Below are positions 18,780 through 21,329 of a stretch of 64,000 nucleotides of DNA, piece by piece (positions within the stretch are counted from its first letter, which is position 1; each line of letters opens with the position of its first letter). A program made the translations under genes and the position numbers. Below the pieces are notes generated by a model, which saw only the letters and a list, made by a program, of their open reading frames with translations, had not been told where the DNA came from and made no database searches. This stretch comes from Pseudacidovorax sp. (GTDB taxonomy: Bacteria > Pseudomonadota > Gammaproteobacteria > Burkholderiales > Burkholderiaceae_C): assembly GCF_017991995.1 (NCBI RefSeq), contig NZ_JAGOPN010000003.1, positions 62,001 to 126,000 of the forward strand. Reading direction: 5' to 3'.

Positions 18780-19910
18780 TTAAGCGTCCAGCAGGATGCG
18801 CAGCATGCGGCGCAATGGTTCCGCCGCGCCCCAGAGCAGCTGGTCGCCGATGGTAAAGGCGCCCAGGTACTCGGGGCCCATGGCCATCTTGCGCAGCCGG
18901 CCGACCGGGATCGTCATGGTGCCGGTCACGGCCACGGGCGTCAGGTCCTTGAGGGTGGCTTCGCGCGTGTTGGGCACCACCTTCACCCAGGCGTTGTCGG
19001 CCGCGATCATGGCCTCGATGTCGGCCAGCGGCACGTCCTTCTTGAGCTTGAATGTCAGGGCCTGGCTGTGGCAGCGCATGGCGCCCACGCGCACGCAGAA
19101 GCCGTCGACCGGCACGGCGGGGCTGCCGAAGCCTTCGCCCTGGCCGAGGATCTTGTTGGTCTCGGCCATGCCCTTCCATTCTTCCTTGGACATGCCGTCG
19201 CCCAGGTCCTTGTCGATCCAGGGGATCAGCGAGCCGCCCAGGGGCACGCCGAAGTTGGCCGTCTCTTCGCCCGAGAGGCTGCGCTGCCTGGCGATGACCT
19301 GGCGGTCGATCTCGAGGATGGCGCTCTTGGGGTCGTCCAGCAGGGCCTTCACTTCCGAATAGAGTGTGCCGTACTGCGTCAGCAGCTCGCGCATGTGCTG
19401 CGCGCCGCCGCCCGATGCGGCCTGGTAGGTCTGCGTGCTCATCCACTCGACCAGGCCCGCCTTGTAGAGCGCACCCACGCCCATCAGCATGCAGCTGACG
19501 GTGCAGTTGCCGCCGATCCAGTTGCGGCCGCCGTCGGACAGGGCGTTCTTGATGACCGGCATGTTGACCGGGTCGAGCACGATGACCGCGTCGTCCTTCA
19601 TGCGCAGCGTGGAGGCGGCGTCGATCCAGTGGCCGTTCCAGCCGGCGGCGCGCAGCTTGGGGAAGACTTCGGTGGTGTAGTCGCCGCCCTGGGCCGTGAT
19701 GATGATCTCGCAGCGCTTGAGCTGGTCGATGTCGAACGCGTCCTGGAGTGTGGTCTCGTTCTTCGCCATGGCGGGCGCCTTGCCGCCGGCGTTCGAGGTG
19801 GAGAAGAACAGCGGCTCGATCAGATCGAAATCCTTCTCGGCCACCATGCGGTCCATCAGGACCGAGCCGACCATGCCGCGCCAGCCGACCAAACCTACCA
19901 ACTTGCTCAT
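18780..19910 (-). CDS. asd: Aspartate-semialdehyde dehydrogenase
   Basis: This 376-residue enzyme reduces beta-aspartyl phosphate to aspartate semialdehyde with NADPH. This is the branch point to lysine/diaminopimelate, threonine, isoleucine and methionine. The NADP-binding [13 protein letters not shown] (6-18) and the catalytic Cys136 in GGNCTVS are present; the length matches the gram-negative Asd type. The ATG at 19908-19910 has AAAGGG 8 nt upstream, a good Shine-Dalgarno. Upstream lies a probable attenuation leader (20018-20119) with competing stems, so expression is likely set by Thr/Ile/Lys supply rather than by read-through from leuB, which has its own terminator. Confidence 0.96.
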
Positions 19911-19954
19911 GTCAAAAGCCCTTTCAGAGTCATACAAAGAAGACCGCGGCGAAG

Positions 19955-20024
19955 GGGCTGGCCCGCCTGGCTCGTCCGTGGGCCAGGGGGGAGGCACGCG
20001 CGACGAACCAGGCTGGGTCAGCCC
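19955..20024 (-). promoter_or_regulatory. Mutually exclusive stems between the leader peptide and asd
   Basis: Three pairings compete. Stem A:D joins 20008-20024 (overlapping the leader's last sense and stop codons) with 19955-19970, about 15 pairs with one mismatch and one bulge. Stem B:C joins 20002-20012 with 19966-19976, 11 pairs including one G-U. Stem C:D joins 19980-19986 with 19958-19964, 7 G-C-rich pairs around a 15-nt loop. A ribosome stalled on the Thr/Ile/Lys codons would cover strand A and leave B free to pair with C. No strong T-run follows; the downstream sequence up to the asd Shine-Dalgarno is only moderately T-rich (near 19930-19945). Confidence 0.6.
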
Positions 20025-20119
20025 TTAATGGTCGTCGTGGTTTTGGTGATGGATGCGCGCGCGGTGCTGGCCAGGGCGGCAGGCACGGTGTTCAGGGCGA
20101 ACGGGCGGGCGACAAACAT
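20018..20119 (-). CDS. Putative Thr/Ile/Lys-rich leader peptide of asd
   Basis: This is a 33-codon frame with ATG at 20117-20119 and TGA at 20018-20020. Its last ten residues include five Thr, two Ile and two Lys, with four consecutive Thr codons (residues 27-30). Thr, Ile and Lys are end products of the pathway that Asd supplies. There is no Shine-Dalgarno; TACAAT (20128-20133) is 8 nt before the ATG, so the transcript may begin at or within a base or two of it. It lies in the leuB-asd gap, after the leuB terminator, and its 3' end is part of one of three alternative stems. The layout resembles thrL of enterics in logic, with an unrelated N-terminal half. Function is inferred, not shown. Confidence 0.65.
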
Positions 20120-20127
20120 GGGGCGCG

Positions 20128-20133
20128 ATTGTA
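20128..20133 (-). promoter_or_regulatory. -10 box of the asd leader promoter
   Basis: On the minus strand this is TACAAT (5 of 6 consensus bases), followed after 8 nt by the leader ATG. The -35 region, at 16-18 bp upstream, is poor. The spacing puts the expected transcription start at or within one or two bases of the ATG. Confidence 0.6.
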
Positions 20134-20157
20134 GCCGGCATCGGCGCAGTCCTACAT

Positions 20158-20184
20158 GCAAAACGGCCCGACAGGGCCGCTTTG
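20158..20184 (-). terminator. Intrinsic terminator after leuB
   Basis: On the minus strand a 6-bp CGGCCC/GGGCCG stem with a 4-nt loop is flanked by A-rich and T-rich tracts (GCAAAG before it, TTTTGC after it). It lies 46-72 bp after the leuB stop and separates the leu genes from the asd leader. Confidence 0.75.
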
Positions 20185-20229
20185 CAGTGGGTGTCGCGTG
20201 CGCCCGACGGGCGCAGCGTTTACACCTTT

Positions 20230-21300
20230 TCAGGCCAGAGCCTTCAGAACGGCATCGCCCATTTCCCGGGTGCCAACCTTGGTGGTGCCTTCGCTCCAGA
20301 TGTCGGGCGTACGCAGGCCCTGCGCCAGCACGGCCTTGACGGCGGTCTCGATGCGCTGGGCGGCGTCTTCCTGGTTGAGGGAGAAGCGCAGCATCATCGC
20401 GGCGCTCAGGATGGTGGCCAGCGGATTGGCCACGCCTTTGCCGGCGATGTCGGGTGCGCTGCCGTGGCTGGGCTCGTACAGGCCCTGGTTGCTGTCGTTC
20501 AGGCTGGCCGAGGGCAGCATGCCGATGGAGCCGGTCAGCATCGAGGCCTCGTCCGAGAGGATGTCGCCGAACATGTTGCCGGTCACGATCACGTCGAAAG
20601 CCTTGGGCTTCTTCACGAGCTGCATGGCCGCGTTGTCGACGTATATGTGTTCCAGCTCGATGTCGGGGTAGTCCTTGTGCACCTCGGTGACCACGTCCTT
20701 CCAGAACTGGAAGGTCTCCAGCACGTTGGCCTTGTCCACGCTGGTGACGCGCTTGTTGCGCTTGCGGGCGGCCTCGAAGGCCACGCGGGCGATGCGCTCG
20801 ATCTCCGGGCGCGAGTAGCGCATGGTGTCGAAGGCCTCGTCGGCGCCCGGGAAGTGGCCGTCGGTGGCCACGCGCTTGCCACGCGGCTGGCCGAAGTAGA
20901 TGTCGCCGGTCAGCTCGCGGATGATGAGGATGTCCAGGCCTGCGACCAGCTCGGGCTTGAGGCTGGAGGCATGCGTCAGCTGCTCGTAGCAGATGGCCGG
21001 GCGGAAGTTGGCGAACAGGCCCAGATTCTTGCGCAGGCCCAGGATGGCCTGCTCGGGGCGCAGCGGGCGGTCCAGCTTGTCGTATTTCCAGTCGCCGACG
21101 GCGCCGAAGAGCACCGCATCGGCTTCCTTGGCCAGCTTGAGCGTGGCCTCGGGCAGCGGATGGCCGTGGGCCTCGTAGGCGGCGCCGCCGACCAGGGCGG
21201 TCTCCATCTCGAACTTGAGGTCCAGCGCGTCCAGCACGCGCACGGCCTCCGCGACGATTTCGGTGCCGATGCCGTCGCCGGGCAGAACTGCGATCTTCAT
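20230..21300 (-). CDS. leuB: 3-isopropylmalate dehydrogenase
   Basis: This 356-residue NAD-dependent dehydrogenase converts 3-isopropylmalate to 2-oxoisocaproate in leucine synthesis. The [15 protein letters not shown] start, the substrate-binding Arg segment around 90-105, and the metal-site block with [12 protein letters not shown] (about 240-251) are present. The NAD-binding [10 protein letters not shown] follows near 282-291. The length is normal. It lies 29 bp after leuD in a leuC-leuD-leuB operon. An intrinsic terminator follows at 20158-20184. Confidence 0.96.
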
Positions 21301-21329
21301 AAGTGGTGTTTGGTTGAAAGTGAAATGGG

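Follow-up and report, generated by a model that had tools for sequence, protein, structure and literature searches.

Attenuation by short translated leaders is a known kind of control, of which thrL-thrABC and ilv of enteric bacteria are examples. The asd locus analysed here resembles them in that a short reading frame, rich in codons for products of the pathway and predicted to be translated, is followed by alternative hairpins and then by a biosynthetic gene. It differs in the gene that would be controlled (asd), in a codon run that mixes Thr, Ile, Lys and sometimes Met, in a leader that is either predicted to be leaderless or formed by the C-terminus of LeuB, and in the region before asd, where no U-run terminator is kept throughout and pairing reaches the Shine-Dalgarno sequence (SD). 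In translational attenuation of the erm type, a stall in the leader frees the sequestered SD of the next gene. Stalling in the leader would likewise free the SD of asd, but what is sensed would be a shortage of amino acids, through the codons of the run, while in erm the stall depends on a drug. In Escherichia coli, asd is known to be repressed multivalently by Lys, Thr and Met, and to our knowledge no leader peptide has been described there; the gene is the same and the end products overlap, but here a candidate cis mechanism is visible. The trpL leader of Sinorhizobium meliloti is leaderless, as is predicted for one form of the asd leader, but that system is alphaproteobacterial and concerns another gene and another amino acid. 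S. meliloti trpL/peTrpL is presented as an attenuation leader, as is proposed here for asd, in PMC7298713, and the ermC leader is mentioned in PMC2965389.

Literature searches, judged by titles and abstract openings in a coverage with most subscription journals outside it, gave no report of an asd leader peptide, of a leader formed by the LeuB tail, or of the RNA described below. We know of no counterpart of the LeuB-tail leader. As far as the searches show, three things are new: the asd target, a run that mixes codons of the aspartate family and, most of all, a LeuB C-terminus that would serve as a leader exchangeable with a leaderless mini-ORF.

The locus lies on the minus strand of the window, i.e. 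the whole stretch of 64,000 nucleotides that was analysed. Among named genomes, its closest relatives around asd are Pseudacidovorax. Its features, in the direction of transcription, are the following.

20230..21300, minus strand: leuB, 3-isopropylmalate dehydrogenase, 356 aa (NCBIfam TIGR00169 leuB, 506 bits, on a slightly longer reading, 20233-21306)
20160..20179, minus strand: terminator-like hairpin 3' of leuB, CGGCCC TGTC GGGCCG TTTT (direct sequence reading; under the scan threshold)
20128..20133, minus strand: TACAAT, predicted -10 (sequence reading and conserved spacing in relatives)
20018..20119, minus strand: leader ORF, 33 codons, without SD (ATG 20119-20117; stop 20020-20018)
20021..20050, minus strand: putative regulatory codon run, ATC ACC AAA ACC ACG ACG ACC ATT AAG GGC (sequence and family comparison)
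20002..20013, minus strand: arm A of the conserved hairpin, GCCUGGUUCGUC, starting 4 nt past the leader stop (A:C covariation)
19980..19986, minus strand: arm B, CUGGCCC, in the A:C loop, alternative partner of C or D (sequence reading and permutation test)
19965..19976, minus strand: arm C of the conserved hairpin, GACGAGCCAGGC (A:C covariation; present in the MFE fold)
19958..19964, minus strand: arm D, GGGCCAG, complementary to B (sequence reading)
19952..19959, minus strand: anti-SD-like sequence, AGCCCCUU (pairing with the leader end in the MFE fold; SD pairing read from the sequence)
19918..19924, minus strand: asd Shine-Dalgarno sequence, AAAGGGC (sequence; SD-pairing comparison)
18780..19910, minus strand: asd, aspartate-semialdehyde dehydrogenase (NCBIfam TIGR01745 asd_gamma, 602 bits; start at 19910)

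The leader ATG starts 8 nt after TACAAT, and the final ten residues of the leader are 5 Thr, 2 Ile, 2 Lys and 1 Gly, while LeuB of the window ends without a Thr/Ile/Lys tail. The 33-codon frame, its codons, the missing SD and the TACAAT had all been indicated in a preliminary description of this DNA, and were found correct on rereading the sequence. The terminator-like hairpin at 20160-20179 sits between leuB and the leader promoter; in this standalone architecture, it would uncouple asd from the leu operon. A scan for consensus promoters and terminators gave no site of either type in 19500-20600.

As read from the sequence, A and C form a 12 bp stem (20013-20002:19976-19965), and B and D an alternative one of 7 bp (19986-19980:19964-19958). 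The sequence AGCCC at 19959-19955 has two possible partners, GGGCU 20024-20020 at the leader end and GGGCU 19921-19917 at the asd SD. A 120-nt RNA from the window folds at -56.9 kcal/mol, against a mean of -43.2 for shuffled sequences (z -3.6), and none of 200 shuffles is as stable. Rfam release 15 (4227 models) gave no match in the window at the gathering score, only two plus-strand matches at chance level in 19900-20240 (E 0.34 and 4.2), and no match up to E 1 in 12 relatives.

The conservation of the codon run was evaluated in loci sampled from 80 named contigs, from the genus (11 asd loci from 15 genomes, plus the window) and from the host family, where 120 loci were drawn from the 292 of 299 genomes with an asd match. 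The host-family set held 209 loci with an asd start, 208 of which were classed; L053, L229 and L230, where the asd start is unreadable, and L219, with too little upstream sequence, were dropped. A locus was counted as positive when at least 6 of the last ten residues before a stop codon, located 55-175 nt upstream of asd, were Thr, Ile, Lys or Met. By this rule 183 of the 208 host-family loci are positive and 25 fail. Among 63 asd loci of the same order but outside the host family, 2 are positive, and among 3260 shuffled upstream sequences likewise 2. A Thr/Ile/Lys run upstream of asd is thus real and conserved, beyond chance; its conservation in relatives was one of the checks proposed in the preliminary description.

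The positive loci are of two types: in 100 the run ends a standalone leader, as in the window, and in 83 it is the C-terminus of LeuB. They correspond to 163 distinct regions (87 standalone, 76 LeuB-tail); the sample as a whole contains near-copies, and the window twice. Their ten-residue tails are of 106 distinct kinds, none common to both leader types. Thr, Ile and Lys make up 79% of the tails in standalone leaders and 74% in LeuB tails, figures inflated by the rule itself, which selects Thr, Ile, Lys and Met; Met is rare in the runs (1.4% of LeuB-tail residues). The order of the residues varies, as ITTTTKTIKS, AAITKKTITG, GKTITTITKS and AITMTKTIKG show, while the amino acids are kept.

This variability bears on the alternative that a specific nascent peptide stalls the ribosome on a ligand, as in the arrest types represented by SecM and ErmL. 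The recurrence of a C-terminal KTTTIKG among standalone leaders is in line with such an arrest peptide, but the order of the motif differs by lineage, as in the four tails above, a variability in line with codon content and not with one set arrest sequence. We regard nascent-peptide arrest as very improbable.

Codon usage within the run is biased for two of the three amino acids. Ile is encoded by ATT in 52% of the cases in standalone leaders and in 54% in LeuB tails, against 10% and 8% in the body of asd; Lys is encoded by AAA in 56% and 48%, against 11% and 4%. Thr is not rare-coded: ACC accounts for 66% of Thr codons in standalone runs and for 82% in LeuB tails, to be compared with 67% and 62% in asd. 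The rare Ile and Lys codons would suit a stall site, but a richness in A and T, keeping the run unstructured, would look alike. Over 52 standalone leaders whose run has no gaps, the mean entropy rises from 0.07 bits at codon position 1 to 0.17 at position 2 and 0.39 at position 3. Some third positions are nonetheless fixed, since a GGC codon is found in 52 of 52 sequences and one Thr codon ends in C in 51 of 52; at the nucleotide level, the run is more conserved than peptide composition alone requires. Because of these fixed positions, the run is likely to carry a constraint at the RNA level, in addition to its coding role.

In the standalone form, a TANRAT sequence is found 4-11 nt before an in-frame ATG in 85 of the 87 distinct leaders (28 of 1740 for shuffled sequences), the two exceptions being L175 and L227. 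The gap is 8 nt in 52 leaders, 7 in 15, 6 in 12, 9 in 3, 10 in 2 and 11 in 1; a spacing of 6-8 nt is therefore seen in 79 of the 87. SD-like 4-mers occur in only 3 of the 85 leaders that have a -10. Standalone leaders thus feature what is expected of leaderless genes, which lack an SD and have their -10 some 6-8 nt ahead of the start codon. With the customary spacing, such a -10 puts the start of transcription at or beside the ATG; the transcript of the standalone leader is accordingly predicted to start there and, hence, to be leaderless. Both traits, lack of an SD and placement of the -10, had been noticed in the window and are kept in relatives.

In the LeuB-tail form, the tail reaches 10-24 residues (median 12) past a conserved MGDAV of LeuB, while in the 54 standalone loci with a readable LeuB end the protein stops 4-7 residues after MGDAV. 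In all of the 48 LeuB-tail loci long enough for the analysis, the frame runs for 365 codons or more without a stop and is in frame with LeuB. Thr, Ile, Lys and Met form 60% of the tail and 20% of the preceding LeuB sequence. No -10 is found within 20 nt of the MGDAV methionine in any of the 83 LeuB-tail loci. The preliminary description of an asd leader holds for the standalone ORF, to which the LeuB C-terminal tail, used in 83 of the 208 loci and invisible from the window, has to be added.

These data weigh on a second alternative, according to which the run acts as RNA, for instance as a leader that binds a protein or a ligand, and its reading frame is incidental. The strong conservation at the nucleotide level, with the invariant GGC and the nearly invariant third position of a Thr codon mentioned above, may be seen as an indication in its favour. 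The same amino acids, however, occur in 106 distinct arrangements, position 3 is the most variable of the codon, the frame is open and continuous with LeuB wherever a LeuB tail could be followed (48 of 48), and in 85 of 87 standalone leaders the promoter is placed for leaderless translation. On balance, an incidental frame appears very improbable.

The distribution of the two forms was followed on a tree of Asd proteins, built by a quick method, with 138 rows (77 standalone, 46 LeuB-tail, 15 failing the rule) and 55 of its 135 inner branches under a support of 80. On this tree, the three leader states need 19 changes; the well-supported branches alone force at least 4 changes for the standalone form and at least 4 for the LeuB tail. 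The frame that hosts the run has thus been exchanged repeatedly before the same RNA, and no other finding argues as strongly for the codons being the signal.

It might be argued that the tail serves the LeuB enzyme, by a role in assembly or allostery unconnected to asd, since in 83 of the 208 loci the run does belong to the protein. Yet the same run is located outside LeuB in the standalone loci, where LeuB ends shortly past MGDAV (54 loci), and the same RNA element follows in both leader types; a function limited to the enzyme is, on this evidence, extremely improbable. We consider it likely that LeuB doubles as an attenuation leader, whose tail codons past MGDAV sense starvation for another pathway, and that this fused sensor and a leaderless mini-gene have replaced each other repeatedly among lineages, the RNA switch remaining unchanged.

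The RNA following the run was aligned for 93 representatives, less than 88% identical (42 standalone, 51 LeuB-tail). In the A:C helix, 90.4% of 1109 cells are paired (87.0 in shuffles) and 40 cells are changed on both sides (18.3 in shuffles); none of 500 shuffles reaches either value. Compensatory changes, which the preliminary description had left to be looked for in relatives, are therefore present. Double changes affect 6 of the 12 pairs, and as many are found in 13 of 500 shuffles; the count of further pair types is unremarkable (175 of 500 shuffles as high). Helices slid along the alignment pair in 28-57% of the cells, against 90% for A:C. The covariation term given by RNAalifold for the same 93 sequences is weak (-0.54).

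Pairing was also evaluated by comparing each sequence's own arms with permuted pairs, a comparison which leaves shared ancestry in, its counts being indications rather than probabilities. Permuted pairs equal the own ones for A:C in 0 of 5000 cases in standalone and 12 of 5000 in LeuB-tail loci, and for B:C in 0 and 1 of 5000. A:C and B:C, which are mutually exclusive through their common arm C, thus both exceed permuted pairs in both sets, kinship included. Pairing of the loop start with the last 22 nt before asd gives 41 of 5000 in standalone loci, 2 of 5000 in LeuB-tail loci and 0 of 5000 when these are taken together. For B:D the counts are 2901 and 0 of 5000: as a general feature of standalone loci B:D was rejected, and it is retained for LeuB-tail loci. 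A stop-codon hairpin, GRGCU:AGCYC, initially thought to be conserved, gave 3187 of 5000 in standalone and 115 of 5000 in LeuB-tail loci and is, for this reason, not used as evidence.

LeuB-tail sequences with a GGACC arm all have a downstream partner (13 of 13); 11 of these 13 lack the UCGCC:GGCGA pairing to the SD and feature B:D instead. In the window, loop:SD pairing is poor, and AGCCC, outside the loop, would have to serve; the sequestering strand of the window is probably this AGCCC (19959-19955), a variant of the family pattern. The labels given to the three exclusive stems in the preliminary description are not matchable one to one with the arms defined here.

A covariance model of the RNA matches 123 of 150 host-family genomes, with one match in 122 of them and two in the genome of the window. 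The best 10 of these matches are all located just upstream of the asd match listed for that genome; at least one weak match lies away from asd (G035, E 3e-4). The second match in the genome of the window (L309, G000:C13:27718-27769), with 27.8 bits and an E of 0.009, is at chance level and probably due to chance. Over 80 genomes of the order, the model gave 2 matches, both in the host family, and none in the 78 others.

Of the 25 loci failing the run rule, 5 still carry the RNA (E 0.00015 or better). Three loci with the RNA (L228, L210, L213) have 5 of ten run residues, one under the cut-off, and a fourth, L206, has 2 of ten. In L151 the hairpin is present (30.5 bits), LeuB ends without a run and no leader run was found; this locus looks like a decaying copy. 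A further locus, L058, is on a contig titled Luteibacter MAG, and its Asd clusters with Comamonadaceae, beside genomes of the window's genus group; the contig is probably from a misassigned bin.

In the order-wide check, an asd match was present in 66 of 80 genomes, 64 of them outside the host family, and 63 loci were usable, L290 being left out for its unreadable asd start. Outside the host family only L242 and L278, both of one family, pass the strict rule; L247 and L251, which had passed a looser filter by ORFs inside leuB, were dismissed. Three genomes of that one other family (L242, L278, L305) feature a longer Thr/Ile/Lys-rich asd leader, ending in TTTIITKTVMKG, STTIITKKTKTTVLV or SITTIITKKTKTIILV and followed by a different hairpin, whose arms appear by eye to co-vary. 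The covariance model of the host-family RNA gave no match in two of these three genomes that were searched. From its sequence, this leader looks like an independent or strongly diverged solution.

Taken together, the conserved run, the compensatory changes in the stem and the placement of the -10 support well the multi-amino-acid leaderless attenuation leader put forward in the preliminary description. It is highly probable that asd is under ribosome-mediated attenuation by the aspartate-family codon run, be it at the translational or at the transcriptional level. Ribosomes would translate codons for Thr, Ile and Lys, in some cases also for Met, amino acids that all come from the pathway fed by Asd; in the window species they would read the run from a leaderless mini-mRNA, and in other lineages as the last codons of leuB. 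When any of the corresponding charged tRNAs is scarce, the ribosome would stall within the run, leaving arm A free; A:C would then form and hold the anti-SD sequence off the asd SD, and asd would be expressed. When the amino acids are plentiful, the ribosome would reach the stop codon and cover part of arm A, so that C and the loop would re-pair and the asd SD would be sequestered. Direct comparison of sequences gives the run and where it lies, the spacing of the promoter, the LeuB tails, A:C, B:C and the loop:SD complementarity; from these we infer stalling, and which of the two states is ON.

The effect of the ribosome position was modelled by nested folds, with the ribosome footprint blocked, for 42 standalone and 49 of 51 LeuB-tail representatives, the two remaining ones having no recognised SD. 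For the window, the probability that the SD is unpaired is 0.54-0.55 with the A site at -27 to -18, against 0.22 at the stop; for stalls over the later codons of the run (-15 to -9) the SD stays closed (0.22-0.26). Comparing a stall at -21 with the stop, the SD is more open in 16 and less open in 5 of the 42 standalone sequences, and more open in 15 and less open in 7 of the 49 LeuB-tail ones. Across the family, these folds lend the mechanism weak support.

As to the level of control, the sequences inspected share no terminator family-wide and have pairing close to the asd SD; both points favour translation over a transcriptional control like that of thrL, and we lean slightly towards a control acting on asd translation. 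The same sensing could act by classical transcription attenuation, stalling choosing between an antiterminator and a terminator before asd, which is how classical Thr/Ile leaders act; T-rich stretches are indeed found past C in many loci, such as CAGT..ACTGTTT in Acidovorax-like sequences and TTTTTT elsewhere. This version is possible but rather doubtful: the scan shows no terminator-like site in the window, several sequences (the GGACCCC group, e.g. L059 and L173) have no U-run between C and the SD, and loop:SD complementarity exceeds that of permuted pairs. A general terminator platform is not favoured either, as U-runs are not kept in all of the sequences inspected.

The run supplies a candidate cis mechanism for the multivalent control of asd. 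Attenuation leaders are usually regarded as disposable mini-peptides with their own start site, while here the leader may be either a mini-gene or the end of an enzyme. With the LeuB tail as a sensor, asd expression would be read out by the ribosomes finishing leuB. If this is true, a gene can have its end turned into an amino-acid sensor that serves the gene after it, the leucine operon would be coupled to the aspartate pathway, and the odd Thr/Lys/Ile tails of LeuB proteins would find an explanation.
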